Part shown: positions 5,704 to 61,222 of the stretch, one piece after another
How the letters are laid out: each line of letters opens with the position of its first letter
How positions within the stretch are numbered: the stretch's first letter is position 1
Source: Pseudomonas sp. BMS12
GTDB lineage: Bacteria > Pseudomonadota > Gammaproteobacteria > Pseudomonadales > Pseudomonadaceae
DNA: 64,000 nucleotides
NCBI RefSeq assembly: GCF_001592875.1
Contig: NZ_LSOF01000002.1
Span: 1-64,000 of the forward strand
Reading direction: 5' to 3'
Translations under genes and position numbers: made by a program
Notes under the pieces: model-generated
The model's database searches: none
What the model was told of the DNA's origin: nothing
The model's input: the letters and a program-made list of their open reading frames with translations, nothing else

Positions 5704-5708
5704 GTGAT

Positions 5709-11118: not shown

Positions 11119-11137
11119 CTCGTAGCCGCTGTGAAAG

Positions 11138-13487: not shown

Positions 13488-13498
13488 GGTCTCTGCAC

Positions 13499-14872: not shown

Positions 14873-14895
14873 GTTCCACGCGATACTCCACCTTG

Positions 14896-14922
14896 GGCGG
14901 CCTACGGGCCGCCGCTTTTTTA
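14896..14922 (+). terminator. Rho-independent terminator of the DUF1302-DUF1329 unit
   Basis: GGCGGCC-TACG-GGCCGCC hairpin (14896-14913) followed by GCTTTTTTAT, 23 bases past the DUF1329 stop. Confidence 0.92.
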
Positions 14923-15014
14923 TCGCTTGCAGCGACAACCTGTCGGTATTTGCCCCCGAGGTGCATCGTCTGCTTTAGAGTCCGCCACTCGCCCATGACA
15001 TTCCGGCCTTGCTC

Positions 15015-15926: not shown

Positions 15927-15933
15927 GTCAGGC

Positions 15934-16398: not shown

Positions 16399-16528
16399 TG
16401 TGGCTCTCCCGAACGGATGGCAGACCAGCATAACCAAAGCCGATACGCATGCGCAGAGGTGATTATCCGGCGCCCTCCGGCCTGCGGCATGCTGCGGCGC
16501 ATCCTGGACAACACCACAAGGACACCCG

Positions 16529-16654
16529 ATGCAGTCGATCCCGCAGATCCTGTCCTGGCAGGACGAAGTCGCGCATCGCAGGCGACACCTCCCGCAACGC
16601 CCGGAGATGGGTAGCGCGGATCACCCACCGGAAAGCCAGCAGAGCGAGTCCTGA
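16529..16654 (+). pseudogene. Probable N-terminal remnant of an M20 (HipO-like) amidohydrolase
   Basis: A 41-codon frame begins MQSIPQILSWQDEVAHRRRH and continues LPQRPEMG. It resembles the first 30 residues of M20 amidohydrolases such as hippurate hydrolase, where the usual text is RRxLHxHPELG; the two histidines are replaced by Pro and Arg. Nothing downstream resembles the rest of a roughly 390-aa enzyme; the frame stops at TGA 16652-16654, three bases before the MFS start. It has a ribosome site (AAGGA). It may be a decayed gene left by deletion whose initiation region now leads the MFS gene, or a small coupling ORF. Confidence 0.5.
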
Positions 16655-16657
16655 GCC

Positions 16658-17968: not shown

Positions 17969-18077
17969 ATCCTTTACCCCCACAGCGCATCGGCACTGGG
18001 CCTAACGAGAGCTCCGGCCCAGAGCGCTGAATCCTCCGTCCGATATCCGGCGGTACCACTCACCACACGGAAACACC

Positions 18078-45406: not shown

Positions 45407-46324
45407 ATGCCTTCCCTGCTCAGACTGCACCGCTTGAAACTGGCCGCCCTGCTGCTGGCCAGCAATCTCGCCCTGCTCCTGCACCTGGCCGCCGGCGACC
45501 TCAAGCCCATGGCCGAATGGGTCTGGCTGGATATTCTCGGCGAAGGCGGCTCGGCCCTGTTGTGCCTGGTCTGGCTGGGCCTGGTACTGAAGAGCCGTCC
45601 GGCTGGCCGGGTCACCAGCTTCCTGGCCATGGGCCTGGGTCTGGTGTTCTTCTCCTGGTGGGTGGACGCCCTCGACGAATTCATCAAGCTGCCCGACAGC
45701 ATCACCTGGGATCACTGGCTGGAGTCGGCGCCAATGCCCTTCGGCCTGATCCTGCTGACCCTCGGCATCTACCACTGGCACCGCGAACAGCTGGCCATCA
45801 GCGCGCAGATGGAGAAGCGCGAACGTCTGTTCCGCGAGCACCGCCTGTTCGACAACCTGACCCCGCTGAACACCGCCGAGTACCTGCGCCGCCAACTGGA
45901 TCAGGCACTGCAGCATGCCCGCAACGCCCAGCAGCCACTGTCGCTGGTGATCCTCGACCTGGATGATTTCAGCCGCATCAACCACCTGCACGGCCACGCC
46001 GAGGGCGACCGCGTGCTGCAGGCCCTGAGCCAGTTGTTGCTGCTCAACCTGCGCCACCAGGACCTGCTCTGCCGCCTGGCTGGCGACCGCTTCGTGGTGC
46101 TGCTGCCCAACACCGGCGAAGGCCAGGCCCGGCAACTGGCCGAAGAGCTACGCCGGGCCGTCGAGCACCTGGCGCACAAGGCCCGCGACCACGGCGAACG
46201 CCTGCAGCTGCATGCCAGCGTGGCCAGCGTGATGGCCCTGCAGGACGATGCCGAAGGCCTGCTACAGCGCCTCAACCAGGCCCTGGCCCGCGCCAAGCAG
46301 CCGCGCTATCCGCGCAGCGCCTGA
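45407..46324 (+). CDS. Membrane GGDEF-domain protein with degenerate active site
   Basis: A 305-aa protein with four N-terminal hydrophobic segments (about 10-30, 40-60, 67-85, 100-118), a short linker helix and a C-terminal GGDEF domain (about 155-300). The metal site DLDDFSRINHLHGHAEGDR is normal, but the signature GGDEF reads AGDRF (CRLAGDRFVVLLPNTG). Five residues before it is RHQD, a proper RxxD inhibitory site. The protein may therefore bind cyclic-di-GMP without making it. It is followed 9 bases later by an AraC regulator gene. Confidence 0.88.
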   Translation: MPSLLRLHRLKLAALLLASNLALLLHLAAGDLKPMAEWVWLDILGEGGSALLCLVWLGLVLKSRPAGRVTSFLAMGLGLVFFSWWVDALDEFIKLPDSITWDHWLESAPMPFGLILLTLGIYHWHREQLAISAQMEKRERLFREHRLFDNLTPLNTAEYLRRQLDQALQHARNAQQPLSLVILDLDDFSRINHLHGHAEGDRVLQALSQLLLLNLRHQDLLCRLAGDRFVVLLPNTGEGQARQLAEELRRAVEHLAHKARDHGERLQLHASVASVMALQDDAEGLLQRLNQALARAKQPRYPRSA

Positions 46325-47437: not shown

Positions 47438-47703
47438 CTGCAGACTGATTCCTGACATCCGTGATCGGTGCGCCGTCCTGGCGAACAATCCCTCATGTCC
47501 CTGTTACTTCTGATGCGCTTCCTGCGCTAAGTCCTTGAAAGCGAGATTAATCTGGCTAGTGGCACACTGATAGCAGCCTTCGCCGGCGCACCTTGTAAGC
47601 CAAAGCTTACACGGCCACCGAGCGGGAAAAGGTTCACAAAACCGGTGTGACGGCTATCATCGCGCGCCTTATTCCTGCGCCTGCGCGCACCCGAGTCCCG
47701 AAG

Positions 47704-48099
47704 ATGAAACCGCAACTGATCGCCGCCGCCGAAATCGACCGCCTGGAAACCTGGAGCAAGTACAACAAGGACATGTGCAGCAGCTGCATGTCCACCTGCT
47801 GCACCATGCCAGTGGAAGTGCGCATCAGCGACCTGATCCGCATCGGCCTGGTCGACGAGTTCGAGCGCGGCGAGCCGCCGAAGAACATCGCCAAGCGCCT
47901 GCAGAAGGACGGCATGATCGAGCGCTTCAATGCCAAGTCGGGGATCTTCACCCTGACCCGCATGAGCAACAACGACTGCATGTACCTGGACCGCAAGACG
48001 CGCCTGTGCAGCATCTACGACAAGCGCCCGGACACCTGCCGCAACCATCCGCGCATCGGCCCGCGCCCGGGTTATTGCGCCTGGCGCCCGAAGCAGTAA
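47704..48099 (+). CDS. YkgJ family cysteine cluster protein
   Basis: A 131-aa protein of the YkgJ family (probable Zn or Fe-S binding). Conserved cysteines occur as DMCSSCMSTCCTMP near residue 25 and as NNDCMYLDRKTRLCSIYDKR with RPDTCRNHP toward the C-terminus. No signal peptide, so cytoplasmic. ATG 47704 (MKPQLIAAAEIDRLE) is chosen; the longer frame has no ribosome site. Its biochemical role is not known. It is independent of the alginate-type operon that follows after about 500 bases. Confidence 0.9.
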   Translation: MKPQLIAAAEIDRLETWSKYNKDMCSSCMSTCCTMPVEVRISDLIRIGLVDEFERGEPPKNIAKRLQKDGMIERFNAKSGIFTLTRMSNNDCMYLDRKTRLCSIYDKRPDTCRNHPRIGPRPGYCAWRPKQ

Positions 48100-48322: not shown

Positions 48323-48339
48323 TTGGCGCACCCTTTGCA
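48323..48339 (+). promoter_or_regulatory. Sigma-54 promoter of the alginate-type operon
   Basis: TTGGCGCACCCTTTGCA has GG at 48325-48326 and GC at 48337-48338 with exactly 10 bases between, close to the RpoN consensus TTGGCACG-N4-TTGCA. Transcription would start near 48350, leaving a leader of about 265 bases. CCGTTCGGC at 48291-48299 matches the AlgR word CCGTTCGTC at 8 of 9 positions. I found no AlgU-type GAACTT...TCTGA pair. Confidence 0.65.
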
Positions 48340-48500: not shown

Positions 48501-48611
48501 ATGGATTTGGGTATCGGATATCCCGGTTGTTCGCCTGTTTGCACGTCGCGCTCACGCGCCTCGGTGCCGACACGCAGCGCCGGACAGCGCGCCTCCACCC
48601 GCGGAGGCTGA
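48501..48611 (+). CDS. Possible 36-aa leader ORF before alg8
   Basis: ATG 48501 with GAGAGG upstream encodes MDLGIGYPGCSPVCTSRSRA and 16 further residues rich in Ser/Arg. The stop at 48609-48611 is two bases from the alg8 ATG, and GGAGG inside its end is the alg8 ribosome site. Coupling is plausible, but codon use is unconvincing and no family is recognised. It could be non-coding leader. Confidence 0.3.
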   Translation: MDLGIGYPGCSPVCTSRSRASVPTRSAGQRASTRGG

Positions 48612-48613: not shown

Positions 48614-50146
48614 ATGAGCAGCCATATTGCGGGCGGCGCCACGGCGCCGCTCAAGAGCGACTTGTGCGCCCGCTTTTTCGGCTGGGCCTGCCTGTTCGCC
48701 CTGATCGTTCTGGCGTCCGGGCTGATCGACCCCGATCTGCTCGACCCCGAGCACAAGAAATTCATTCTGCTGGTCGGCGGCATCGGCCTGTGGCGCTATG
48801 GCAACGCGGCCATGCACTACCTGCGCGGCATGTACTTCCTGCACTGGAAGTTCCCGCGCATGCGCCGCGCCGTGGAGGCCATGGGCGATGCCGCGCTGCC
48901 GTCGCAAATATTCATGGTGGTGACCAGCTTCCGCATCCCCACCCACACAACCTACAAGGTGTACCGCTCGGTATTCGAGGAAGTGCAGCGCCTGCCGGTG
49001 CCCTGCACGGTGATCGTGTCGATCGTCGAGAAGGCCGACGAGAACTTCATCAAGCAGATCATGCGCGAGCAGGTGGTCGGTCGTGACGACATCCGCCTGG
49101 TGGTGGTGCGCGCCCGCGGCACCGGCAAGCGCGACGGCCTGGCCCACGCCTTTCGCGCGCTGTCGCGACAGATGCCGCTGGAAGACGCGGTGGTCGGCGT
49201 GGTCGACGGCGACACCATGATGCTGCCGGGCTGCGTGGAAAACGCGGTGAAGTTCTTCGCCTACCTGCCCTCGGTCGGCGGCATCACCACCAACGAGTTC
49301 TGCCAGGTCGAGGGCGGCAAGCTGGTGCGCGAGTGGCACTCGCTGCGCTTCGTCCAGCGCCACATCAACATGTGCTCGATGTCCCTGTCGCGACGGGTGC
49401 TGACCATGACCGGACGGCTGTCGTTCTTCCGCGCCAGCCTGATGACCGAGCCGGCCTTTATCCGCGATGTCGAGGCGGACTTTCTCGAACACTGGCGCCT
49501 GGGTCGCTTCCGTTTCCTTACCGGCGATGACAAGTCGTCCTGGTTCAGCCTGATGCGCGCCGGCTGGGACACCTTCTACGTGCCCGACAGCAACACCCTG
49601 ACCGTGGAGCATCCGCCAGACAGCAACTTCTTCCGCGCCACCCGCCAGCTGATGTTCCGCTGGTACGGCAATTCCCTGCGGCAGAACTTCCGCACCACCC
49701 GCCTGCTCGGGCTGCGGCAACTGGGGCTGTTCACCATGTATGTGCTCTACGACCAACGCGTGTCCATGTGGACCAGCCTGCTCGGCCTGGCGGCTTCGGC
49801 CACGGCGGCGGTGCTGTACGGCGTCGAGTTCATCCTGGCGTACCTGTTCTGGGTGCTGCTGTCGCGCACCCTGGTGACCCTGCTGATGCTGAGTGCCGGG
49901 CACCCGGTCGATCCGCTGTATCCGCTGGTGCTCTATTACAACCAGATCGTCGGCTCGGCCATGAAGGTGCACGCCCTGTTCCACATGGATCAGCAGAGCT
50001 GGACCCGGCAGAAAACCACCCTCGACCGCAGCGAGACCAATGTCGACCTGGCCATCAACCACTGGTCCTCGAAAACCATGCAGGCCTCCGCCTTCGCTTT
50101 GTTCGGCGGCGCGGTAGCCCTGCTCCTGGCCCTATCACAACCCTGA
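48614..50146 (+). CDS. alg8: Alg8-type glycosyltransferase (mannuronan synthase subunit)
   Basis: A 510-aa inner-membrane GT2 enzyme that polymerises mannuronate from GDP-mannuronic acid. It shows two N-terminal membrane helices, VDGDTMMLPGC (D198-G-D200), LTGDDKSSWFSLMRAGWDTF and VEHPPDSNFFRATRQL, and a C-terminal membrane part with YYNQIVGSAMKVHALF and DQQSWTRQKTTLD, all diagnostic of Alg8 rather than cellulose or hyaluronan synthases. ATG 48614 follows GGAGGCTGAGC. It is the first gene of a ten-gene operon, but algD, which normally precedes it, is absent. GDP-mannuronate must come from genes elsewhere. Confidence 0.93.
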   Translation: MSSHIAGGATAPLKSDLCARFFGWACLFALIVLASGLIDPDLLDPEHKKFILLVGGIGLWRYGNAAMHYLRGMYFLHWKFPRMRRAVEAMGDAALPSQIFMVVTSFRIPTHTTYKVYRSVFEEVQRLPVPCTVIVSIVEKADENFIKQIMREQVVGRDDIRLVVVRARGTGKRDGLAHAFRALSRQMPLEDAVVGVVDGDTMMLPGCVENAVKFFAYLPSVGGITTNEFCQVEGGKLVREWHSLRFVQRHINMCSMSLSRRVLTMTGRLSFFRASLMTEPAFIRDVEADFLEHWRLGRFRFLTGDDKSSWFSLMRAGWDTFYVPDSNTLTVEHPPDSNFFRATRQLMFRWYGNSLRQNFRTTRLLGLRQLGLFTMYVLYDQRVSMWTSLLGLAASATAAVLYGVEFILAYLFWVLLSRTLVTLLMLSAGHPVDPLYPLVLYYNQIVGSAMKVHALFHMDQQSWTRQKTTLDRSETNVDLAINHWSSKTMQASAFALFGGAVALLLALSQP

Positions 50147-50157
50147 GAGGCAGCCCC

Positions 50158-51300
50158 ATGAACAGCGTTCTTTCCCCGGCAGCCAATGTCGTTCACGAAG
50201 CGGTCGACGAGCGCCAGCACGTGCGCAGCAAGCTCCCGGCCCGAGTCACCCTGAGCGGCACCGGCGACAGCTTCGCCTGCGAGCTGCAGGACATCTCCCT
50301 CGGCGGTCTCGGCCTGCGCTGCCCGCACGAGCTGAGCCCCGGCGCCCTGTATGCAGCGGCCATCCAGCTCGACCTCAACCGCGTGGCACTGACCCTGGAT
50401 GTGCAGCTGCGCATCACCTCCCAGCACGATGGCATGACCGGCGCCGAGTTCGTCGACCTCGACCCGCAGAAGCGCGACATCCTGCGCTACCTGCTGAGCG
50501 CCTACATGTCCGGCGAGATCGCCGACGTCAACGGCCTGTTCAACGTCATGCAGCGGGAAAACTACATCAAGCAGCGCAAGCAGAAGTTCAGCGCCGACCG
50601 CACACCGCTGGAGCGCCTCAAAGCCGTGGCCGGCAGCGCGCTGTACCTGGTCGCCGGCGTCGCCGTGGCCAGTGTGCTGCTGTACAAGAGCTACCTGCTG
50701 TTCTTCAGCGTGCCGGCCAGTCAGGCGCTGGTCAGCGCCGATGCACACATCGTCAGCATGCCGGAGAACGGCTACGTGCGCTTCCTCATCCCCGAGGGCG
50801 CGACGCGGGTCAAGGCCGGCGAGCCGATCGCCAGCGTCTCCACCCAACTGGCCACCAGCTTCACCACCCCGGCCGACCTCGAAGCGCTGGCGCGCATCTC
50901 GCAAACCGACCTGCAGAGCCTGCTCGGCCGCGCCCTGATCGAGACCACCATCGCCAGCCCCTGCGACTGCTACGTCTACTTCCCGCGCAAGCAGAGCGAT
51001 GGCTACGCCTACAAGTTCGACGAACTGGTGCACCTGATACCCGCCAGCGACGACCTCTACGTCAAGGCCAGCTTCCCGTTCGCCAAGCTCAAGGATCTCA
51101 ACCGCATCAGCAGCATCGACCTGCAGGTGTTCGGCCAGGCCGAGGCGCTCAAGGGCCAGGTGATCCGCTCGGCAGTGGATGCCGAAACCCAGTCGCTGGT
51201 ACTCAGCATCCGCCCGGACCAGCCGCTGCCCCTGGAGGCCTACCAGAAGCCGGTCACGGTCGAGCTGTTCAAGGGCCTGCCACTGACCAGCAGCCTGTAG
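50158..51300 (+). CDS. alg44: Alg44: PilZ c-di-GMP receptor/co-polymerase
   Basis: A 380-aa inner-membrane protein that activates Alg8 on binding cyclic-di-GMP. The N-terminal PilZ domain has the full ligand motif: R19-x-x-x-R23 (RQHVR) and D45-x-S47-x-x-G50 (DISLGG). A transmembrane helix follows near 160-185, and then a periplasmic membrane-fusion-like domain. The signature is intact, so post-translational c-di-GMP control is expected. It starts 11 bases after alg8. The 3' end leads into algK after 11 bases. Confidence 0.93.
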   Translation: MNSVLSPAANVVHEAVDERQHVRSKLPARVTLSGTGDSFACELQDISLGGLGLRCPHELSPGALYAAAIQLDLNRVALTLDVQLRITSQHDGMTGAEFVDLDPQKRDILRYLLSAYMSGEIADVNGLFNVMQRENYIKQRKQKFSADRTPLERLKAVAGSALYLVAGVAVASVLLYKSYLLFFSVPASQALVSADAHIVSMPENGYVRFLIPEGATRVKAGEPIASVSTQLATSFTTPADLEALARISQTDLQSLLGRALIETTIASPCDCYVYFPRKQSDGYAYKFDELVHLIPASDDLYVKASFPFAKLKDLNRISSIDLQVFGQAEALKGQVIRSAVDAETQSLVLSIRPDQPLPLEAYQKPVTVELFKGLPLTSSL

Positions 51301-51311
51301 GGAGTCGCGCC

Positions 51312-52631
51312 ATGGTCAAGACCGGAATGACCGCAGCCCTCTGCGCCCTGCTGCTGGCGACCAGCAGCCAGGCCGCCAGCCTGGCCCAGGTGCAGTACCG
51401 CCTGCACCAGGATCAGAACGCCGACGTCGAAGCCGACCTGCGCGAGCTGGTCGCGCGTGGCGACCAGGCCTCCATGTTGCTGCTGGCCGACCAATTGGCG
51501 CGCCGTGGCCAGCACCAGGACGAAGCCATGCAGCTGTACCACCAGGCCTTCGCCAATGGCCACGGCAAGGTCACTGCCCTGGCGCCGCTGGCAGAGCTCG
51601 CCGAGCGCCTGCCCGACGGTCTGGAGCAGCAGCGCGCCTTCTTCAGCGACGCCCTGCGCCGCTACCCACTGACCCGTGATTTCGAGACCCTGAGCACCAG
51701 CCTCGACGTGTTCATGGTCTACCCCGAGCTGTTCACGCCCTACGAGCCGCAGGCGCTGATCGAGCTGTACCAGCGCGCCTGCGTGGACAACTGCCATGGC
51801 GTGCTGTACCGCGCCCGCCTGGCCGAGCAGCAGGGCAATCTGGCTCTGGCCGAGAACCTCTACCTGCAGGCCATCCACCAGGACGCCCGCGCCGTGCAGC
51901 GCCTCTATCAGGCGCTCGGCGACGCCCAGGACGAGCTGTTTCCGCAGAAGGTCAAACCCCTGCTGGCGGAAATCGACCAGTTGCCGGTGGCCAGCGTGCA
52001 GGCCATCGGCAGCCTGCTCAGCGGCATCCCCCGCGAGCACGACCCGGAGGTGCTGCTGTGGCTGGACAACGCCATCGCCCGCCAGGCCGACAGCGCCCTG
52101 GTGAGCAAGGCCAGCTACATGATGTCGGCGCCGCAGAACTACAGCGCCGACGAGGTGTTCGCCCTGATCGACCGGGTCGAGCAGACCCGCTCCCAGGAAG
52201 GCCGCGCCCTGCGCGCCTCGGCTTACCTGGTGCGCGGCTGGCGCAGCCTTGATCCGTTCAAGGCCAAGGCACTGATTGACCAGCTGCTCGCCGAGGGCTA
52301 CCAGAACGCCTACCTCAACCTCGGCGAGCTCTACAGCATGGGCGGCCTGGATCAGGTCGACCAGGCCAAGGCCATCGCCACCTACCGCCTGCTCGCCGCC
52401 CAGGGCGTGGCCTCGGCCTTCTACCGCATCGCCACCATCTATGGCGGCGGCAAGGGCATCTGCCACGACAAGCGCAAGGCCTACGCCTACGCCAGCATCG
52501 CCGTGGAACGCGGCGAACTGGGCGCGCGCAAGTTCCTCCACGAGATGGAAAGCCAGCTCAGTGACGAGGATCGTCGCCTGGCCCTGCAGGCTCGGGTCGG
52601 CATCCTCGAGGAACTGGAGGCGACCCTATGA
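51312..52631 (+). CDS. algK: AlgK-type TPR/Sel1-repeat periplasmic scaffold lacking a lipobox
   Basis: A 439-aa exported repeat protein. AlgK is a scaffold linking the inner-membrane synthase to AlgE in alginate producers. Repeats such as LYHQAFANGHGKVTALAPLA, LYLQAIHQDARAVQRLYQAL and TYRLLAAQGVASAFYRIATI form the superhelix. The signal peptide (MVKTGMTAALCALLLATSSQ, cleavage near QA-ASLAQ) has no lipobox Cys; in P. aeruginosa AlgK is an outer-membrane lipoprotein. Here it would be soluble in the periplasm or tethered through partners. It overlaps algE by 4 bases. Confidence 0.88.
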   Translation: MVKTGMTAALCALLLATSSQAASLAQVQYRLHQDQNADVEADLRELVARGDQASMLLLADQLARRGQHQDEAMQLYHQAFANGHGKVTALAPLAELAERLPDGLEQQRAFFSDALRRYPLTRDFETLSTSLDVFMVYPELFTPYEPQALIELYQRACVDNCHGVLYRARLAEQQGNLALAENLYLQAIHQDARAVQRLYQALGDAQDELFPQKVKPLLAEIDQLPVASVQAIGSLLSGIPREHDPEVLLWLDNAIARQADSALVSKASYMMSAPQNYSADEVFALIDRVEQTRSQEGRALRASAYLVRGWRSLDPFKAKALIDQLLAEGYQNAYLNLGELYSMGGLDQVDQAKAIATYRLLAAQGVASAFYRIATIYGGGKGICHDKRKAYAYASIAVERGELGARKFLHEMESQLSDEDRRLALQARVGILEELEATL

Positions 52632-53998
52632 GACGTCAGCTCAGTGCACTGTTGTGCCTGCCCTGGCTGGCCCTGGCCCAGGCCGAGGAGTCGGCCCAGG
52701 AGATCGTCGACAACGCACCGAGCCAGGAGACGGTGACCGACCTGGGCCGCTTCGAGTTCGCCCAGAAAGTCACCCTGCAGGGCGGCTACGGCCCCGACCA
52801 GGGCGTGCTCGGCAATGACCGCAAGGGCTTCTACGGCCTGCGTTACGAACCGACCCTGGCCTGGTATTCCGAGGAAGGCGCCTGGTCGCGCTGGCAGGGC
52901 TTCACCCGCGCCTGGCTCAACTACAACTCGGGCCAGGCCAGCACCCCGCTGCAGGACAACGACACGCAGCAGATCGAATACTTCAGCGCCGAGCTGCGCG
53001 AGTTCTACCTGCGCCGCAACCTGCTCGGCGACGACCCACGCTTTTCCCTGTCGCTCGGCCGTCAGCGCTTCGGCGACTACTTCGGCCTGTGGTGGGACGA
53101 CAGCCTGGAAGCCCTGCGCCTGGACTACGACGACAGCTTCGGCAGGGGCTTCGTCGCCGCCGCGCAGAAATTCCACAGCTACAACAGCGACATCAACGGC
53201 CTGGACGCCAGCCAGAAGGACATCGCCTACCTGATGGGTGAATACGCCTGGCGCTGGCAGGCCCAGCAGTGGTTCGGCCTGCGCCTGCAGCTGGAGGACG
53301 ACCACAGCGACAGCGATGAAGCCGACGACCCGCAGGACTTCGACGGCTATCGCGCCGGCCTGTTCGCCACCGGCGAGCAGCTGGACTGGGGCCTGCTCAG
53401 CGACTACCGCCTGGAACTGGCCATGCTCGACGGCGACAGCGACTTCAACGACGGCAGCCAGCAGAGCCGCAACGGCTGGGCGCTGCTCGGCGAGGTCGGC
53501 AAGCGCTTCGACGAGCTGCCCTGGCAGCCGCGCCTGGTGCTGCACGCCGGCCTGACCGACAAGCCGGACGAGGAAGGCGATGGCTTCTACCTCAACGACA
53601 TCCAGTCCGACCGCGTCGCCGACCCGCAGACCTACAGCACCGGCCTAGTCAGCGCCTTCATCGGCGTCGACCTGCGCAACCTGGCGTTCTACGGCATCGG
53701 CCTGGAAACCCAGCCGCGCCCGCGCCACCAGCTCGACCTGCGCCTGACCGACCTGCACCTGCGCGATGCCGACGGCGAGTTGCCGCTGCGGGTCGATGAA
53801 GACTCGCGCAGCGGCAGCCACAGCCTCGGCCAGAGCCTGGATCTCAACTACTTCTGGCGCATGTTCCCGCAGGCCTTCGAACAGCGCCAGGTGCAGGTCA
53901 ACGCCCTGCTTTCCACCAGCTATTTCCGTGCCGGCAGCGCAGTTCGCGGCCTGGACAATGACTTCCAGGTCGCCTTCGGCCTGGTGCTGCGCTACTGA
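52628..53998 (+). CDS. algE: AlgE-type outer-membrane polysaccharide export porin
   Basis: A 456-aa outer-membrane beta-barrel of the alginate-export family. It has a signal peptide (LPWLALA-QAEES) and strands with RYEPTLAWYSEEGAWSRWQG, EFYLRRNLLGDDPRFSLSLG and RQRFGDYFGLWWDD, ending in FQVAFGLVLRY with a terminal aromatic residue. In AlgE the pore is lined with Arg residues attracting polyuronate; Arg-rich strands are also seen here. ATG overlaps the algK stop (ATGA). In the canonical operon algG follows; here algI follows after 15 bases. Confidence 0.92.
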   Translation: MRRQLSALLCLPWLALAQAEESAQEIVDNAPSQETVTDLGRFEFAQKVTLQGGYGPDQGVLGNDRKGFYGLRYEPTLAWYSEEGAWSRWQGFTRAWLNYNSGQASTPLQDNDTQQIEYFSAELREFYLRRNLLGDDPRFSLSLGRQRFGDYFGLWWDDSLEALRLDYDDSFGRGFVAAAQKFHSYNSDINGLDASQKDIAYLMGEYAWRWQAQQWFGLRLQLEDDHSDSDEADDPQDFDGYRAGLFATGEQLDWGLLSDYRLELAMLDGDSDFNDGSQQSRNGWALLGEVGKRFDELPWQPRLVLHAGLTDKPDEEGDGFYLNDIQSDRVADPQTYSTGLVSAFIGVDLRNLAFYGIGLETQPRPRHQLDLRLTDLHLRDADGELPLRVDEDSRSGSHSLGQSLDLNYFWRMFPQAFEQRQVQVNALLSTSYFRAGSAVRGLDNDFQVAFGLVLRY

Positions 53999-54013
53999 CC
54001 GCGAGGTGTCGCC

Positions 54014-55441
54014 ATGGTCTTCACATCCAACCTGTTCCTGTTCCTCTTCCTGCCGGTGTTCCTGCTGGTGTACTACGCGGTCAAGGACAACTGGCGCTCA
54101 CACGTCATCGTGCTCGGCAGCTACGCCTTCTATGCCTGGTGGCGGCCGGACTTCCTGCTGTTGTTCGTCGGTATTTCCTACTGGAACTACTGGTTCGGCC
54201 TGCTGATCAAGCGGCGCCTGGATGCCGACGACAAACAGGGCGCCTTCCGCCTGCTGACCCTTGGGGTGATCGGCGACCTGGCCACGCTGGGCTACTTCAA
54301 GTACGCCAACTTCGGCGTCGAAGTGTTCAACGAGATCCTCGCGCCGCTGGGGGTGAACACCTTCACCCTGGAGCACATCATCCTGCCGCTGGGCATCTCC
54401 TTCTATGTGTTCCAGGCGATCAGCTACATCGTCGACATCTACCGCAAGGATGCCGAACCGACACGGCGCTTCGTCGACTTCGCCGCCTTCATCGCCCTGT
54501 TCCCGCAACTGATCGCCGGGCCGATCCTGCGCTACAGCCTGATCGACCAGCAGCTCAAGCAGCGCACCCACTCGCTGGAGCTGTTCAGCCTGGGCGCCAG
54601 CCGCTTCATGCTCGGTTTCGTCAAGAAGGTGCTGATCGCCGACTCGCTGGCGCCGATGGGCACGGTGATCCTCGGCGACGCCGAGCCGCAGATGCTCGAC
54701 GCCTGGTTCGGCATGTTCATCTGCCTGGTGCAGCTGTACTTCGACTTCTCCGGCTACAGCGACATGGCCATCGGCCTGGGCATGATGATGGGCTTCCGCT
54801 TCGCCGAGAACTTCAACCAGCCGCTGCTGTGTCAGAGCATGACCGAGTTCTGGCGACGCTGGCACCTGACCCTGGCGGACTTCCTGCGCGACTACATCTA
54901 CATGCCGCTGATCCGCTCCAAACGCATGGGCGCCGACGCCGCGCTGTTCTGCACCATGCTGCTGTCCGGCTTCTGGCATGGCGCGAGCTTCGCCTACATC
55001 GTCTTCGGCCTGTACTTCGCCGTGCTGATGCTGATCGAGCGGCGCATGAAGTGGGTGACCAAGGTCAACGGCCGCTACCGCTTCTGGCGCAATGTGCTGG
55101 CGTTGATGCTGGTGGTCGGGGTGATGCCCTTCTTCGCCACCGGCGACATCCAGCACGCGCTGAACATCCTCACCGGCATGGCCGGCCTGCGCGGCATCGG
55201 TTCGCTGGACGGCTACTTCCTCGCCACCTCGCAGATGACCGTGGCCTTCACCGCCGTGGCGCTGCTGTGGATGGCCCTGGCCGGGCGCATCAACGTGCGC
55301 TACTACGCCGGCGCCAAGCAGGGCTACTGGATGCAGCACGTCGGCGGCCTGAGCATGGCGCTGCTGTGGGCCGCGTTCGGCCTGTCGCTGACCCGCCTGG
55401 CCGCCAATTCCTTCTCTCCCTTCCTCTACTTCCAGTTCTAG
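54014..55441 (+). CDS. algI: AlgI-type MBOAT O-acyltransferase
   Basis: A 475-aa inner-membrane MBOAT protein that passes acetyl groups across the membrane for alginate acetylation. It begins MVFTSNLFLFLFLPVFLLVY and has FPQLIAGPILRY, FDFSGYSDMAIGLGMMMGFR and the active-site segment LSGFWHGASFAYIVFG with His322, the same position reported as catalytic in P. aeruginosa AlgI. The 15 bases up to and including its ATG (CGAGGTGTCGCCATG, 54002-54016) are identical to those before algG, suggesting a past rearrangement. It is followed 9 bases later by algJ. Confidence 0.95.
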   Translation: MVFTSNLFLFLFLPVFLLVYYAVKDNWRSHVIVLGSYAFYAWWRPDFLLLFVGISYWNYWFGLLIKRRLDADDKQGAFRLLTLGVIGDLATLGYFKYANFGVEVFNEILAPLGVNTFTLEHIILPLGISFYVFQAISYIVDIYRKDAEPTRRFVDFAAFIALFPQLIAGPILRYSLIDQQLKQRTHSLELFSLGASRFMLGFVKKVLIADSLAPMGTVILGDAEPQMLDAWFGMFICLVQLYFDFSGYSDMAIGLGMMMGFRFAENFNQPLLCQSMTEFWRRWHLTLADFLRDYIYMPLIRSKRMGADAALFCTMLLSGFWHGASFAYIVFGLYFAVLMLIERRMKWVTKVNGRYRFWRNVLALMLVVGVMPFFATGDIQHALNILTGMAGLRGIGSLDGYFLATSQMTVAFTAVALLWMALAGRINVRYYAGAKQGYWMQHVGGLSMALLWAAFGLSLTRLAANSFSPFLYFQF

Positions 55442-55450
55442 GAGCGCGCC

Positions 55451-56560
55451 ATGTTTCCGGTGATGACTTCCGCCCACAAGCTCAACGGCATCCTGTTCAT
55501 CGTCATGCTGACGGCCATGCTGGCCTACTCCACACCCAAGGTGCTGCAGTTCGCCAGCACCCAGGCACCGGCGCAGGCCGCCGAGCAGTTCATGAGCGGT
55601 CAGCTGCTGCGCCAGTTCGAGCGCTACTACGACAGCAACCTGTTCCTCCGCGCGCCATCCATCGAGATGTGGGCCAGCGCGCAGTACCTGCTGTTTCGCG
55701 AGGGCTCCAGTGGCGTGGTGCTGGGCAAGCAAGGCTGGCTGTTCACCAATGCCGAGTACCTGGTGCCCAACGCCTACGAGGACAACCTCGACAGCAACCT
55801 GGCGAAGATCGCCGAGGTCGAGCGCACCCTGCGTGCGCACAACAAGCGCCTGATCATGCTGCCGCTGCCGATGAAGGTGGATGTCTATGCCGAGTACTCG
55901 TCACGCCCGCTCGATGGCCGTGCCCTGGGCCTGTACGAGGACTTCGTCGCCGGCCTGCGTCGCGCCAGCATCGAAACCAGCCCGCTGCGCGACGCCTTCC
56001 TCGCACACAAGGATCAGCAGGCGCTGTTCCTGCGCACCGACACCCACTGGACGCCCGAAGGCGCGCGCCTGGCCGCCCAGGAACTGGCGCGCCAGCATCC
56101 CGAGCTGATCGGCAGCACCAGCTACACCTCGCATCCGGTGGCGGAAAAGAGCCTGCCGGGCGACCTCAGCAACTACCTGCTGTTCAACCGCAGCCTGGCG
56201 CCCGAGCGCTTCCGCCCCAGCCCGCTGCAGCTCTACGAAACCCTCAAGAGCGAGCAGCAGGTCAGCGACGGCGCGCTGTTCGGCGAGGCCAGCCAGCCGA
56301 TCATGCTGGTCGGCTCCAGCTACACCAAGATCGACGACTGGAACTTCCCCGGCTTTCTCAAGGAGTCGCTCCAGAGCGACCTGCAGACCACCGCGGTGGA
56401 GGCCAAGGGCCCCTATGCGGCGATGGAGCAATTCCTCGCCGGCGAGCGCCTCAAAGACCCGGATATCACCACGGTGATCTGGGAATTCCCGGTGCGCACC
56501 CTGCTCGCCGAGAAGCCCACCACCGGCGGCTGGCAGGTCGCCGCCAACCAATTCTTCTGA
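55451..56560 (+). CDS. algJ: AlgJ-type SGNH-like acetyltransferase
   Basis: A 369-aa protein with an N-terminal membrane anchor (about 10-30) and a periplasmic AlgX/AlgJ SGNH-like domain. The catalytic residues are present: D197-x-H199 in RTDTHWTPEG and Ser in VGSSYTK (S289/S290). Its P. aeruginosa homologue has acetylesterase activity and works with AlgI and AlgF. It starts 9 bases after algI with TAGGAGCGCGCC. It is part of the contiguous block algI-algJ-algF, as in the canonical operon, but moved upstream of algX-algL. Confidence 0.92.
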   Translation: MFPVMTSAHKLNGILFIVMLTAMLAYSTPKVLQFASTQAPAQAAEQFMSGQLLRQFERYYDSNLFLRAPSIEMWASAQYLLFREGSSGVVLGKQGWLFTNAEYLVPNAYEDNLDSNLAKIAEVERTLRAHNKRLIMLPLPMKVDVYAEYSSRPLDGRALGLYEDFVAGLRRASIETSPLRDAFLAHKDQQALFLRTDTHWTPEGARLAAQELARQHPELIGSTSYTSHPVAEKSLPGDLSNYLLFNRSLAPERFRPSPLQLYETLKSEQQVSDGALFGEASQPIMLVGSSYTKIDDWNFPGFLKESLQSDLQTTAVEAKGPYAAMEQFLAGERLKDPDITTVIWEFPVRTLLAEKPTTGGWQVAANQFF

Positions 56561-56573
56561 TCGGAGACTGACC

Positions 56574-57215
56574 ATGAACAACCTCAGCCAACGCCTGCTC
56601 CTGGCCCTGTGCCTCACCGTTCCCGTGCTGGCCCATGCCCAGGATGGCAATGCCGCCCTCTACGACGCCGTGGCCCCGGCCGGTTCGGCCTTCGTGCGCA
56701 TGCTCAACCTGACCGGCAGCGGTAGCGAACTGATGGTCAGCGGCAAGAGCGCGGCGCAGAAGATCGGCGCCGGCCAGCTCGGCAACTACCAGTTCGTCGC
56801 CCCCGGCGCGCACAAGCTGAGCGCCGGTAGCACCAGCCTGCAGACCGAACTGAAGGCCAACAGCGCCACCACCCTGGTCTTCGACGGCCAGCAGTTGAAG
56901 CCCATCGCCGACACCTACAGCGAAGACAGCAAGAAGGCGCTGATCGCCTTCTACAACCTCACCGACAAGCCGCTGTCGCTGAAGACCCTGGATGGCAAGC
57001 ACGCGGTGGTCGAGAGCGTGCCCAGCGGGCAGAGCGGCTCGCGCCCGGTCAACGAGATCAAGATCGGTTTCGCCGCCTATGCCGGCGAGCAGAACCTGGC
57101 CAAGTTCGACGAGCTGTTCCTGAAGAAGGGCCGCTCCTACAGCTATCTGGTGATCCCCGATGGCGCCGGGGTCCGCACCATCGCCTCGATGAACGGCCTA
57201 GACAGCATCAAGTAG
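56574..57215 (+). CDS. algF: AlgF-type periplasmic acetylation protein
   Basis: A 213-aa exported protein (signal cleavage near AHA-QDGN). AlgF joins AlgI and AlgJ in acetylating polymannuronate, probably as an adaptor. Recognisable parts are YDAVAPAGSAFVRMLNLTGS, AAQKIGAGQLGNYQFVAPG and the C-terminal KKGRSYSYLVIPDGAGVRTI. It lies 13 bases after algJ and 8 bases before algX. Its family restricts it to alginate-type clusters, which supports the identity of this locus. Confidence 0.92.
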   Translation: MNNLSQRLLLALCLTVPVLAHAQDGNAALYDAVAPAGSAFVRMLNLTGSGSELMVSGKSAAQKIGAGQLGNYQFVAPGAHKLSAGSTSLQTELKANSATTLVFDGQQLKPIADTYSEDSKKALIAFYNLTDKPLSLKTLDGKHAVVESVPSGQSGSRPVNEIKIGFAAYAGEQNLAKFDELFLKKGRSYSYLVIPDGAGVRTIASMNGLDSIK

Positions 57216-57223
57216 GTAAGCCC

Positions 57224-58609
57224 ATGAACATGCCGCGCCCGCTCCTCGTCGCCCTGCTGTTGTTTCTCGCGCCTGCCGCCCAGGCTGCCGAACAGCAGTG
57301 CGAGCTCGATTGCCTGCTGTGCTCCGGCCTGGCCGAGCCGAGCCATTACAGCGAAGGCATCATGAAGTCGATGAAGTACATCGCCCCGGGCGACGACACC
57401 TGGCTGTTTCGTTCCGAAGTGGACCTGAGTAACGACTTCGGCATCCCGCCCGACATGCGCGGCGAGTTCAAGCGGCTGATGGATGCCTTCCACGCCAAGG
57501 GCACCCAGGTGGTGATCGCCGTGCAGCCGACGCGCGGCATCATGCACCGCGACAAGGTGCGGGCAGATGCGGCCTATGGCTTCGACTTCAGCAAGGCGCG
57601 GCGCAACCTGGCCGCCTTCCTCGGCCAGCTGCGCGCCGGTGGCGCCGTGGTGCCGGACATCCTGCCGCTGGTCGACCACCCACCGCAGCAGGACTACTTC
57701 TTCCGCCGTGACCACCACTGGACGCCCACCGGCGCGCAGGTCACGGCCAAGGTGGTGGCCGACAGCATCCAGCAACAGCCCTTCTACGCCGAACTGACGA
57801 AGAAGAGCTACCGCACCGAGCCAGGCGTGATGCTGCCCAAGGACGGCACCATGAGCCGGGCCCTGAAGAAGATCTGTGGCAACAACTACGGTTTCCAGTA
57901 CGCCCGCGGCTTCCAGACCGTGCCGGCAGGCGACGACCTCGGCGCACTGTTCGACGAAGAAAGCGAGCAGGAAGTGGTACTGGTCGGCACCAGCAACTCG
58001 GCCAGCCGCGACGACGACACCAAGAACTACAACTTCGACGGCTACCTCAAGGAATACCTCAGCGTCGACATCCTCAATGTCGCCCTGCCCGGCGCAGGCC
58101 AGGAAGGCGCGCTGCTCAACTACCTGCAGTCGGCCGACTATTCGCCGGATGCGCCACCGAAGATGATCATCTGGGAGCTACCGGCCAGCTTCCACCTGGA
58201 GGACCCGCTGCTCTATCGACAACTGCAGCCGGCGATTCGCGGTGGCTGCGCCAAGGCCCAGGTGCTCGGCAAACGCAGCGGCGAGCTGCCGGTCCTGCAA
58301 CCCGGCCAGCGCCGCGAGCTGTTCAGCAATGCCGGCAGCAGTCGCCTGGATCTGCGCGGCAAGCCCGGCTTCATCGACCTCAAGCTGGGCGACAAGAACC
58401 TCAAGGACTTCTACCTGATCGTTTATTACGACAACGGCCAGCGCGACAAGGTGTGGTATCGCCGCGAAGCCATCGTCGAGGGTGGCCAGTATTACCTGGA
58501 GCTGAGCCGCGACCCGGTATTTCGCGACGCCAATCTGATCTCGGTGTTCTTCGAGCCCAGCGAGCCGCTGGAACATCCCAGCAGCGTGGAGCTGCAACTA
58601 TGCCTGTGA
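57224..58609 (+). CDS. algX: AlgX-type alginate O-acetyltransferase
   Basis: A 461-aa periplasmic protein with signal peptide (LAPAAQA-AEQQC). The SGNH-like domain has D163-x-H165 (RRDHHWTPTG) and Ser257 (VGTSNSASRD), the triad reported for AlgX, followed by a carbohydrate-binding module (about 350-461; NLKDFYLIVYYDNGQRDKV). AlgX transfers acetyl groups to mannuronate residues and is needed for export. The conserved cysteines CELDCLLC at the N-terminus are typical. Its last 10 bases overlap the algL start. In canonical operons it precedes algL, as here. Confidence 0.94.
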   Translation: MNMPRPLLVALLLFLAPAAQAAEQQCELDCLLCSGLAEPSHYSEGIMKSMKYIAPGDDTWLFRSEVDLSNDFGIPPDMRGEFKRLMDAFHAKGTQVVIAVQPTRGIMHRDKVRADAAYGFDFSKARRNLAAFLGQLRAGGAVVPDILPLVDHPPQQDYFFRRDHHWTPTGAQVTAKVVADSIQQQPFYAELTKKSYRTEPGVMLPKDGTMSRALKKICGNNYGFQYARGFQTVPAGDDLGALFDEESEQEVVLVGTSNSASRDDDTKNYNFDGYLKEYLSVDILNVALPGAGQEGALLNYLQSADYSPDAPPKMIIWELPASFHLEDPLLYRQLQPAIRGGCAKAQVLGKRSGELPVLQPGQRRELFSNAGSSRLDLRGKPGFIDLKLGDKNLKDFYLIVYYDNGQRDKVWYRREAIVEGGQYYLELSRDPVFRDANLISVFFEPSEPLEHPSSVELQLCL

Positions 58610-59697
58610 AACCGCTGGCCGCCCTGCTGCTGACCCTGGCCGGCAGCGCCCAGGCCCAGTCGATCTGGGCGCCGCAGCCGACGGCACTGAGCAGCCAGGT
58701 CGGCGACTATCGCCAGCTGGAGTGCCCGAAGAAAGTCGCCGAGCCCTACACCGGGCCGCTGCAGATCGATAGCAAGTACGACCAGAGTGACGCCAGCCGC
58801 TCGACCCTGAGCAACAAGGTGTCGGCGCGCTCCAAGGAAACCCATGCGCGCATCGCCGAGTTCAGTCAGCGCCTGGCCCAGTTCGCCGATTACTACCTGC
58901 AGGCGAAGAACGCCAAGCAGGCCGGCACCGCACTGGCCTGCATCGACCAGTGGCTGCAGGCCTGGGCCGAAGCCGGTGCCCTGGAGAGCCGCGACACCAG
59001 CAAGACCGGCATGGCCGCGCGCAAGTGGACGCTGGCGGCCATCGCCTCGACGCTGCTCAAGACCCAGGCCGTCAGCGGCGGCCAGCCGCAGCTGTCGAGT
59101 GCACAGAAGCAGTGGCTGCAACGCCTGGCCGAACTGATGATGGCCGACTACGCGCCGCGCCTCGCACCCGACTTCGCCTATTTCAACAACCATGACTACT
59201 GGGCCGGCTGGGCCATGGCCGCCACCGGCATGCTGCTCGGTCGCGACGATTACATCGCCTGGGGCGAGCGCAACTTCCGCCGCGCCCTGGGGCAGATCAG
59301 CGTCTCGCCCCATGGCGACTACGCCTACCTGCCCAACGAGCTGGGCCGGGGGCGCCTGGCGGCCAACTACACCCATTACGCCCTGGTTCCGCTGATGCTG
59401 CTGGCTGAGTCATCACGCCTGAACGGCCCCGGCCTGAGCACCGCAGACCAGCAGAAACTGCAGCAACTGGCCAACTTCGCCGCCCTCAGCGTGCTGGACG
59501 AGCGCGCGCTGAGCGAGCTGCGCGGCCAGCCGCAATATCCGGTGCCGCCGTACAAGATGGTCTGGCTGCTGCCGTTTCTCAGCCAGTACCCGCAACACAA
59601 GCAAGCCCGCCACCTGTACACCAACGTCGGTGTCGCCGCCGATGGCTACAGCCAACTCGGTGGTCGCCTCGCGCCGCTGTATCCCGATGTTCACTGA
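58600..59697 (+). CDS. algL: AlgL-type mannuronate lyase
   Basis: A 365-aa periplasmic polysaccharide lyase of family PL5 that clears misdirected polymer by beta-elimination, preferring polymannuronate. It has a signal peptide (TLAGSAQA-QS), the PL5 (alpha/alpha) toroid segments RKWTLAAIASTLLKTQ, and the catalytic FNNHDYWAGWA (H198 with adjacent Asn) plus NYTHYALVPL with the conserved Tyr. All expected active-site residues look intact, so the polymer is probably rich in mannuronate. ATG 58600 overlaps the algX end by 10 bases. Confidence 0.94.
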   Translation: MPVKPLAALLLTLAGSAQAQSIWAPQPTALSSQVGDYRQLECPKKVAEPYTGPLQIDSKYDQSDASRSTLSNKVSARSKETHARIAEFSQRLAQFADYYLQAKNAKQAGTALACIDQWLQAWAEAGALESRDTSKTGMAARKWTLAAIASTLLKTQAVSGGQPQLSSAQKQWLQRLAELMMADYAPRLAPDFAYFNNHDYWAGWAMAATGMLLGRDDYIAWGERNFRRALGQISVSPHGDYAYLPNELGRGRLAANYTHYALVPLMLLAESSRLNGPGLSTADQQKLQQLANFAALSVLDERALSELRGQPQYPVPPYKMVWLLPFLSQYPQHKQARHLYTNVGVAADGYSQLGGRLAPLYPDVH

Positions 59698-59713
59698 ATC
59701 ACGAGGTGTCGCC

Positions 59714-61222
59714 ATGCTCCCGCTCGCCATCCTGCGCCGCTGCATCGCGCCGCTCCTGCTGGCCAGCAGTGCCGCCACGGCCCAGCAAGGCCTCTACCAC
59801 CATCACCTGGAGGCACTCAGCAGCCACCCGCAGCAGGCGCGCATCGCCGAACTGCTGGCGGCGCCAGCCCAGGGCCTGGACCCCGCCCTGTTCAGCGTCA
59901 CGCCGCCCGGCGGCCGCGCCAGTGTCGGCCTGTCCAACCTGTTCTCGGCCCAGGCCGGCAGCTGGCCGTTCGAGCCCTTCGCCAGCAGCGGCCTGTTCCG
60001 CGTGATCGCCGATTATCAGGCGCACCACCCGCAGGCGCTGCTGCTGGACAACGGCAGCCTGAGCCTGGCCGAACTGGCCCAGCGGGTGAACGACCCGCGC
60101 GTACTGCAACGGCACAAGGACGGCTACCTGCTGAGCTATCCCCTGCTGATCGGCCCGCAAGGAGCGCTGCGGGTGGAGAACGAACAGCTGTACCTGAACA
60201 GTCGCGCCGGCGCCGCCGTGATCAACCGCGGCCTGCTGATCCTGCGCCAGGCCAAGGTGCAAAGCTGGAGCGGCGAACAAGCGCAGCTCTCGGCACAGAG
60301 CTTCCGCCCCTTCATCATGGCCTGGGCCGGCAGCACCACCCTGATCGAAGGCTCCGAGCTCAGCCGCCTCGGCTACAACGCCCACCTGGCCCGCGGCCTG
60401 ACCAGCCTGCGCAGCCAGCAGCAGGCGGCTGCCACACCAGCCGCACGGGTGCTGATTCGCGCCAGCCAGTTCCACGAGATGTCCAGCGGCGCCGAACTGC
60501 ACGACGCCCAGGCGCTGATCGAAGACTCCAGCTTTCACGACCTGCAGCAGTACGGCCTGGACTTCTCCGCCAGCCTGGTCAGCGTACGCGGCAATCGCAT
60601 CAGCGGCGTGCGCAACCACAGCGCCATCCGCCTGCGCAACGGCAGCAGTGGCCTGATCAGCCGCAACCTGCTCAGCGATATCGGCAAGTCGGCCATCGAG
60701 GCCCAGCTGCAGCAAGGCGCTCTGGCCCTGCAAGGCAACCTGATCGGCGGCACCGGCGCCAGCGCCATCGCCCTGCTGGGCGACCCGCAACACCCAGTGG
60801 ATGGCCTGCTGCTGGCCGGCAACCTGATTGCCAACAGCGGCGGCAGCGGCATCGAGGGCCAGCACATTCGCCGCGCGCTGATCCTCGACAACCGCATCAG
60901 CAGCACACCGGAATACGCCATCCGCATCATCAACCAGCCAGCAGTGGGCGGCAGCGAGATCAGCCTGCTCGATAACCGCCTGTCGGCAATCGGCAAGTCC
61001 ATGATCAACCTGCAGGGCGTCGCCAGCCTGCTGCTGGGCAACAACAGCTACCAGGGCATGGCCGGCCTGCAGCAGGTGTTCGATGGCGACCTGCTGGCGG
61101 TGCAGAGCCTGCTACTGGAAACCACCCTCAAGCATGGCTGCGTGGCCCACCTGCAGGTGCTCGCTGCCAGCCAGGCCGGGCCGCCGCCGCTGACGGCGCC
61201 GCGCTGTGGACAGAGCATCTAG
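59714..61222 (+). CDS. algG: AlgG-like right-handed beta-helix protein with a degenerate epimerase site
   Basis: A 502-aa periplasmic protein, about 40 aa shorter than P. aeruginosa AlgG, with signal peptide (SSAATA-QQGLY) and NosD/CASH-type beta-helix coils (LILRQAKVQSWSG; ASQFHEMSSGAELHDAQAL; LDNRISSTPEYAIRI). In AlgG and AlgE epimerases the active site reads YGxDPHD; the aligned position here is YGLDFSA (Y280-A286), so the Pro, His and last Asp are gone. AlgG also has a structural role in protecting the polymer, and that role may be all that is left. It is last in the operon, not after algE as usual, and its 15-base leader duplicates that of algI. Confidence 0.85.
   Translation: MLPLAILRRCIAPLLLASSAATAQQGLYHHHLEALSSHPQQARIAELLAAPAQGLDPALFSVTPPGGRASVGLSNLFSAQAGSWPFEPFASSGLFRVIADYQAHHPQALLLDNGSLSLAELAQRVNDPRVLQRHKDGYLLSYPLLIGPQGALRVENEQLYLNSRAGAAVINRGLLILRQAKVQSWSGEQAQLSAQSFRPFIMAWAGSTTLIEGSELSRLGYNAHLARGLTSLRSQQQAAATPAARVLIRASQFHEMSSGAELHDAQALIEDSSFHDLQQYGLDFSASLVSVRGNRISGVRNHSAIRLRNGSSGLISRNLLSDIGKSAIEAQLQQGALALQGNLIGGTGASAIALLGDPQHPVDGLLLAGNLIANSGGSGIEGQHIRRALILDNRISSTPEYAIRIINQPAVGGSEISLLDNRLSAIGKSMINLQGVASLLLGNNSYQGMAGLQQVFDGDLLAVQSLLLETTLKHGCVAHLQVLAASQAGPPPLTAPRCGQSI

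Follow-up and report, generated by a model that had tools for sequence, protein, structure and literature searches.

The DNA analysed here, hereafter the window, comprises 64,000 nucleotides of Pseudomonas sp. BMS12 and corresponds to positions 1–64000 of a 160,726-base contig (NZ_LSOF01000002.1) in a 4.51-Mb draft assembly of 46 contigs. Positions 48614–61222 carry a second alginate-type operon with the order alg8-alg44-algK-algE-algI-algJ-algF-algX-algL-algG which, judged by gene content and order, is a variant of the epm type that has lost algD. In our assessment, this operon probably borrows its precursors from the classical alginate gene set of the same genome and makes an acetylated polymannuronate that is poor in guluronate or free of it. 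From the sequences compared, we infer guanosine diphosphate (GDP)-mannuronate as the substrate, its supply in trans, the loss of epimerisation and the nature of the product. The ten genes, with their predicted functions, are as follows:

48614–50146, + strand: alg8, mannuronan synthase (GT2), 510 amino acids; DxD, TGDD and RW residues kept; 54% identical to the classical Alg8 of the same genome
50158–51300, + strand: alg44, PilZ cyclic di-GMP (c-di-GMP) co-polymerase, 380 amino acids; RxxxR and DxS kept; 31% identical to the classical Alg44 of the same genome
51312–52631, + strand: algK-like gene, periplasmic tetratricopeptide-repeat (TPR) protein, 439 amino acids; without the lipobox cysteine; NF038194 at E 1.4e-13, below the cut-off
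52628–53998, + strand: algE-like gene, outer-membrane exporter, 456 amino acids; PF13372
54014–55441, + strand: algI, MBOAT O-acetyltransferase, 475 amino acids
55451–56560, + strand: algJ, SGNH acetyltransferase, 369 amino acids; D/H/S kept
56574–57215, + strand: algF, 213 amino acids; PF11182
57224–58609, + strand: algX, SGNH terminal acetyltransferase with a C-terminal carbohydrate-binding module, 461 amino acids; D/H/S kept
58600–59697, + strand: algL, alginate lyase, 365 amino acids; K, N, H, R and Y kept
59714–61222, + strand: algG-like gene, right-handed beta-helix, 502 amino acids; DFSA in place of the epimerase motif DPHD

All ten reading frames are open, and the initial annotation, which had reported these genes in a rearranged order with gaps of 8–16 bases and small overlaps, was borne out. 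The successive spacings from alg8 to algG are 11, 11, −4, 15, 9, 13, 8, −10 and 16 bases, the overlaps thus being of 4 and 10 bases. Its description of how the order departs from the classical one, with algG and algIJF exchanged around algX-algL, was likewise accurate, and neither algD nor algA adjoins the operon in the window. Pfam families were assigned to Alg8 (GT2), AlgE (Alginate_exp), AlgI (MBOAT), AlgJ and AlgX (ALGX), AlgF, AlgL (alginate lyase) and, as a generic beta-helix, AlgG. A PilZ domain was detected in Alg44 by the Pfam scan (E 2.7e-13), the NCBIfam scan giving no match for this protein, and the NCBIfam models of AlgK and AlgG matched the window proteins with scores far under their cut-offs. 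Synthase, PilZ co-polymerase, TPR protein and outer-membrane pore, the components that define a synthase-dependent c-di-GMP exopolysaccharide system, are all present at the sequence level, and in these terms the second operon is a complete set of such parts, of the epm type.

The epm cluster of P. alkylphenolica KL28, reportedly described by Lee et al. in 2014, is said to comprise 11 open reading frames (ORFs), with homologues in Alcanivorax and Marinobacter, and to yield a polymer resembling alginate, which was reportedly proposed to be a substituted polymannuronic acid and to have a role in aerial structures; such a polymer fits the product expected here. Two P. alkylphenolica strains other than KL28 (L205 and L209) carry 11 genes in the order algD-8-44-K-E-I-J-F-X-L-G, which the window shares except for algD (epmD). 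From order and gene content, we infer that these two clusters, which entered the comparison in place of the KL28 sequence, are the epm cluster. In the available parts of two later papers, the epm cluster is cited as responsible for an alginate-like exopolysaccharide (PMC5890197) and the 2014 paper is cited again (PMC8745256).

A second-type Alg8 was found in 46 of the 398 genomes sampled from the genus, this one included, with 72–100% identity to the window protein, compared with 53–57% for the classical Alg8s among the matches listed. The arrangement is thus not peculiar to this genome, as had been implied. The order 8-44-K-E-I-J-F-X-L-G was retained by every one of the 45 relatives over the genes visible, locus L050 being cut by a contig end and lacking algJ to algG, and L089 having a split alg8. 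Nor is a missing algD the norm of the type, since algD heads the locus in 42 of these relatives, 16 of which have algA as well; the AlgDs at these 42 loci are 70–75% identical to the classical AlgD of the window genome. The window and loci L045–L047, which share its order, have neither gene, and one of these three lies on a single 4.86-Mb contig. A further P. alcaligenes record (L248) shows the same arrangement; records L172 and L173 duplicate the L045 and L047 genomes and add no cases. Both algD and algA have been lost only in the clade of the window (P. alcaligenes, P. guryensis and kin). Assembly error or chance was rejected as an unlikely source of the arrangement because the cluster is interior to its contig and the order without algD and algA recurs in other genomes.

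A collection of named genomes, which overlaps the genus sample, yielded 89 relatives, of which 80 were kept: 77 (L172–L248) of the second type and three (L249–L251) classical. The order was as in the window over the genes visible in 76 of the 77, and L233 was also in order, with an extra algL-like match after algG; algG was on the other strand in six (L241–L245 and L247), all named Alcanivorax or Alcanivoracaceae. Records of the second type were named Gilvimarinus, Marinobacterium, Shewanella, Marinobacter, an Oceanospirillaceae metagenome-assembled genome and Alcanivorax. At the level of the order, 25 of 390 sampled genomes had an AlgX match at E 1e-40, a count in which classical and second-type AlgX are mixed. 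Three side observations concern individual loci. In L176 (Pseudomonas sp. Irchel s3f7), algA and algD are not at the head of the second operon but downstream of it, on the other strand; in P. brassicae (L089/L184), the second-type alg8 is in two pieces; and many of the matches to classical Alg8 across the genus span one TGA, some with frames of ~930–960 amino acids, probably because the match overruns the Alg8 stop.

In the Alg8 tree, from which rows shorter than 430 amino acids were left out, the second type formed one clade at 100/100 against the classical proteins at 100/100, and the window grouped with L045, L046 and L047 at 99/93. The P. alkylphenolica proteins (L205, L209) fell inside the second-type clade in the tree with named Alg8s, from which one Alcanivorax row was dropped and in which the Alcanivorax branches, being long, were placed unsurely. 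Quicker trees of Alg44, AlgE, AlgI and AlgX, computed with 19 of the 46 second-type genomes, each gave one second-type clade apart from the classical proteins, as expected of the distinct system that the initial annotation had proposed. Many protein starts in the trees and alignments were set by rule, and N-termini are accordingly rough.

The lost active site of AlgG, which the initial annotation had missed, is the most informative difference from classical alginate operons. The position concerned is:

60560–60571, + strand: codons of D283-F284-S285-A286, which align with D317-P-H319-D320 in the AlgG of P. syringae

By the numbering of the structural entry, the first D of the motif is D317, and H319 is therefore its third letter. 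An AlphaFold model of the window AlgG (predicted local distance difference test, 82.6; predicted template modelling score, 0.85) had as its best match the solved P. syringae AlgG (4OZY/4NK8; Z 38.7, root-mean-square deviation 2.8 over 386 residues, 18% identity). The next family was AlgE4 at Z 27, and Foldseek was also run on this model. The protein as modelled keeps the AlgG-type right-handed beta-helix fold. In a profile alignment, YGIDPHD of 4NK6 faces YaiDlrd of the family. DPHD was present in none of 45 second-type AlgGs of the genus versus 20 of 20 classical ones, and in none of 75 named second-type AlgGs, which overlap the 45 and in nine of which the site was not locatable by pattern, versus 3 of 3 named classical ones.

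The other active sites checked were kept. Among second-type rows, D/H/S was retained in AlgX and AlgJ (45/45), the histidine of AlgI in 45 of 46 with a gap in the remaining row, RxxxR and DxS of Alg44 in 46/46, the residues checked in Alg8 in 45/45, with one row shorter than 100 amino acids left out, and K/N/H/R/Y of AlgL in 45/45. The AlgL arginine seven residues before the catalytic tyrosine, which we take to be R249, is R in 20 of 20 classical and 45 of 45 second-type proteins. These counts rest on alignment columns, as strict patterns miss true sites (DTHWT of AlgJ in 5/45, GFWHGA of AlgI in 6/46).

The epimerase pattern TAYGGNNTNGAYCCNCAYGA (YGxDPH[DE]) was considered at the genome level in 12 chosen genomes; the algD and algA searches covered 12 chosen genomes as well. 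The pattern occurred in eight: once in each of seven, inside the classical AlgG, and three times in G380, in two classical-type AlgGs and one 1022-amino-acid frame. It was absent from all four genomes that have the second operon alone, although this is one DNA pattern and another epimerase may exist there. The second-type AlgG site reads DLHD in two of the four (G332 and G118) and DLQD in the others (G001 and G393). No AlgG scored above the NCBIfam cut-off in these four, and a weak second-type match was present in all 12 genomes. The genome of the window also holds a classical AlgG with DPHD. The histidine is the probable proton abstractor of AlgG according to the accessible text of a 2015 review (PMC4444821), whose reference list includes a title (Gimmestad 2003) stating that polymer formation requires the AlgG protein but not its activity as an epimerase. 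On its sequence, second-type AlgG probably has a structural role in the complex and no C5-epimerase activity.

The initial annotation had allowed for precursors from an unlinked classical operon, and a complete one, with algD and algA, was found on contig C43 (~4.3–20.1 kb) in the order D-8-44-K-E-G-X-I-J-F-L-A. Compared with this set, the second operon showed identities of 54% (Alg8), 31% (Alg44), 47% (AlgI), 31% (AlgJ), 39% (AlgF), 33% (AlgX) and 29% (AlgL), as well as 27% (AlgE) and 23% (AlgG) over part of the length, and no match for AlgK in this comparison. A dehydrogenase search of the genome returned seven matches. Three were strong, namely the classical AlgD and two proteins 34% identical to it, and four were weak (21–23 bits); the single AlgD found is thus that within the C43 operon. 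As side observations, algL lies between algF and algA in this operon and likewise in G377 (L158/L159) and L091, and between algX and algI in L098–L103. Genome G193 holds two complete classical-type operons (L090/L091), with algL between algX and algI in one and before algA in the other.

A split pathway, the alternative that had also been raised initially, does occur, namely in the sister genomes G332 (one contig) and G118 (P. guryensis SR9). There, algD and algA lie 311–312 bases apart with both frames open. In blastn comparisons with C43 of the window genome, they matched at 83–86% and both flanks were collinear at 81–87%; the segment from alg8 to algL (C43 positions 5596–18673) had no blastn match in either genome, and tblastn at this place likewise returned just algD and algA. 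The AlgDs of both genomes group with the classical AlgDs of the window genome, G377 and G193 at 100/99. Neither genome has a classical Alg8 at E 1e-60, the sole Alg8 found being that of the second operon. Proteins with PF01050 at E 1e-20 number one in G118, the AlgA of the remnant locus, and two in G332. G377 (P. alcaligenes RU38D) retains the full classical operon, and G001 (Pseudomonas sp. URMO17WK12:I2) and G393 have the second operon alone, with its own algD and algA. The classical operon has collapsed to algD-algA in the two sister genomes. That exactly these two genes were kept would be difficult to account for if nothing in these cells needed GDP-mannuronate any longer. In a separate observation, AlgI is 81% identical between G332 and G118 (L046/L047), with a synonymous divergence (dS) of 0.43, compared with 91–98% identity for the other operon genes; algI of these genomes possibly underwent allelic exchange.

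In the simplest history, the second operon of the clade would first have lost algD-algA and come to rely on the classical copies, and in two species the classical genes for the synthase, for modification and for export would later have disappeared while algD-algA stayed. In the mechanism proposed for the window clade, the second operon would depend on AlgD and AlgA encoded by the classical operon elsewhere in the genome. Alg8 and Alg44 would polymerise GDP-mannuronate under c-di-GMP control, AlgI, AlgJ, AlgF and AlgX would O-acetylate the chain, AlgK and AlgE would export the polymer, and AlgL would rid the periplasm of stray polymer. The AlgG-like protein would stay in the complex as a structural part without C5-epimerisation, so that the product would contain little or no guluronate. 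The likely product is an O-acetylated, largely unepimerised polymannuronate.

Several findings weigh against this account. The histidine column is H in four of the 45 second-type AlgGs (L046–L049, reading DLHD or DLHG; P. guryensis, G332 and G118 among them), and as they keep this residue, these proteins may not be dead. The D317 equivalent is kept in 45/45, at the Y314 position 44 proteins have Y and one has F, and the R345 column reads R in 33 of 45, a number uncertain owing to a gap, so that R345 may be kept in many; some second-type AlgGs might still epimerise. As to supply, second-type and classical AlgDs are intermixed in the AlgD tree (calculated without the 36% homologues G001b and G393b and without L065, a cluster row of <401 amino acids), and the operon split is not mirrored, which indicates that algD had its own history. 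A second AlgA-type protein (45%) lies on contig C42 of the window genome, and other nucleoside diphosphate (NDP)-sugar dehydrogenases are present in these genomes, dependence on the classical algD being deduced from gene content.

The same AlgG residues, including the histidine of L046–L049, would fit an ordinary duplicate making normal mannuronate/guluronate alginate, in which the polymer is epimerised either by this AlgG with a rearranged site or by the cell's classical AlgG, with its DPHD; the retained fold and the ratio of nonsynonymous to synonymous substitutions (dN/dS) below 1 would fit as well. We regard this explanation as unlikely, given that DPHD is lost throughout and the histidine, the probable proton abstractor, in 41 of 45 proteins, with the other sites checked intact, and that the four genomes with the second operon alone have neither YGxDPH[DE] nor an AlgG above the cut-off, though G332 and G118 keep DLHD. 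It is very improbable that a different nucleotide sugar is used and that the loss of algD reflects a changed polymer rather than borrowing: the window-clade loci do lack algD and algA and the genome has two further NDP-sugar dehydrogenases over the cut-off, but the window Alg8 is 72–80% identical to Alg8s at loci that carry algD, and the sister genomes kept exactly the classical algD and algA and lost the rest. Hardly credible is a decaying relic heading for loss in the window clade, to which the missing algD and algA and a raised dN/dS between the window and L045 for most genes (0.24–0.64, above the other pairs) might point, since the ten frames are intact, each of the ten genes has a pairwise dN/dS (NG86) under 1 in all five pairs compared (AlgG, 0.06–0.47), the order is kept at every genus locus over the genes visible, an upstream element is conserved and the second operon provides the sole Alg8 found in two sister genomes.

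The preferred reading, an epm-type operon with borrowed precursors and an unepimerised product, can be set against known systems. The classical operon of P. aeruginosa and Azotobacter vinelandii has ten homologous genes and the same functional parts, but the two types differ in order, algD/algA content, AlgK lipobox and AlgG active site and form deep, separate clades; the classical order D-8-44-K-E-G-X-L-I-J-F-A, DPHD in AlgG and a lipoprotein AlgK are all absent from the window operon. With a strict pattern, the AlgK lipobox was found in none of 46 second-type proteins versus 12 of 20 classical ones, the other eight reading HGC, AGC or QGC at this place. The acetylated cellulose (wss) operon shares alginate-type acetylation genes, according to the accessible portions of PMC7112194 and PMC4444821, but the window has an Alg8-like synthase and a locus with AlgL, AlgG, AlgK and AlgE. 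The Pap polysaccharide of P. ogarae F113 was considered and rejected, as the available description (PMC7716237) is of a Wzy-like pathway encoded by papA-P without a c-di-GMP-binding protein, and the window holds an Alg8/Alg44 system.

Bundalovic-Torma 2020 (PMC7112194) set two Pseudomonas alginate clades apart by whole-operon duplication and algIJF rearrangement; the accessible text of this paper mentions neither operons lacking algD and algA, nor the reduction of a classical operon to algD-algA, nor the active site of AlgG. Two alginate clusters are mentioned for P. alcaliphila 34 in the available part of PMC3587930. A literature search over titles and abstract beginnings, with subscription papers mostly missing and supplements excluded, returned neither a report of a classical operon pared down to algD-algA nor one of a DPHD-less AlgG in second-type operons, which is no proof of absence from print. 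This kind of operon was already known; as far as searched, what is added here is that algD-algA were lost, that the classical operon collapsed and that the epimerase motif is missing.

More tentatively, and with rather less confidence than a balanced bet would imply, epm-type operons in general may be natural mannuronan machines that keep AlgG for assembly minus catalysis and make an acetylated polymer without guluronate. In the P. alcaligenes/P. guryensis clade, the second operon would have discarded its own algD-algA and taken over supply from the classical operon; in some species it would then have outlasted the classical synthase, leaving the old locus as an algD-algA supply operon. G001 and G393 would be natural mannuronan producers. 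According to the accessible text of the 2015 review, no mannuronan-producing organism had been identified in nature (PMC4444821). The second operon could offer a wild-type source of polymannuronate. It is also a natural experiment in steps: one polysaccharide operon apparently comes to rely on the metabolism of another, and the donor is afterwards cut down to its precursor genes. Second-type AlgGs should accordingly not be annotated as epimerases, and a lone algD-algA pair should not be taken for an alginate operon.

The surroundings of the operon comprise the following features:

47647–48099, + strand: gene of a CxxCxxCC (YkgJ/YcgN-like) protein, upstream neighbour and locus marker
48324–48339, + strand: sigma54-like −24/−12 element TGGCGCACCCTTTGCA, candidate promoter, conserved in four of four window-clade loci
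48501–48611, + strand: short leader ORF of 36 amino acids, with its stop 2 bases ahead of alg8; an ORF like it is readable in L045–L047
61235–62497, − strand: gene of a HAF-repeat protein, downstream neighbour (TIGR02913, E 2e-44)

The HAF-repeat gene, which had been thought to close the cluster, is real, but it is transcribed on the opposite strand and is therefore a neighbour outside the operon. The sigma54-like element, 290 bases before alg8 in the window, also precedes alg8 in three other clade members and forms a conservation island. Its strict pattern was matched in 4 of 46 second-type upstream regions (that of L065 being 2 bases long), all from the window clade and thus related, against a shuffled expectation of 0.0013 per region, so that sigma54 was ruled out as a general trait of this operon type; two of 20 classical regions (G332C and L097) matched too. 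In a weighted scan, based on an approximation of the −24/−12 consensus with a mononucleotide shuffle as the null, L083 likewise scored high, at a different site, among the 19 second-type regions listed. Before the classical-locus algD, scores were 14.4–17.3 in G377, G332 and G118 and 5.5 in the window genome. A GAACTT hexamer, presumably AlgU-like, is aligned just before algD in the window genome and G377 and is missing from that place in G332 and G118. These promoter sequences hint at a possible change of control. An AlgU-type promoter pattern was found in none of the 46 second-type upstream regions, but it caught just 2 of 20 classical algD regions and is thus too strict to weigh against AlgU.

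In the 514-base gap before alg8, tblastn revealed no remnants of algD or algA, the best match (AlgA, E 0.03, opposite strand) being at chance level and one of many. The leader ORF stands after a conserved AGGATGAG...GGCAATGG stretch. In G332, the stretch separating the YkgJ-like gene from alg8 holds a gene for an 866-amino-acid 7TMR-DISM/GGDEF/EAL protein (L046 positions 328–2928, − strand), and similar sequence is present at this place in G118. The window has no such gene before alg8 and has a GGDEF gene at 45407–46324, ~2.3 kb upstream of alg8. Since Alg44 is a c-di-GMP receptor, these neighbouring GGDEF/EAL genes are possibly linked to the operon.

Finally, a third alginate-type cluster, D-8-44-K-E-G-X-L-A without matches for algI, algJ or algF, was observed in eight loci (L092–L097, L170 and L171). 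It resembles the partial alginate duplicate without acetylation genes of P. resinovorans, as described in the accessible text of PMC7112194. All three cluster types occur in G060 (P. taeanensis) and G380 (Pseudomonas sp. CC6-YY-74). At the position of the catalytic histidine, AlgX has N or Y in six of the eight loci (L092–L097) and H in the remaining 14 classical-type rows, among them L170 and L171; in these six loci, acetylation seems, from the sequences, to have gone together with algI, algJ and algF.

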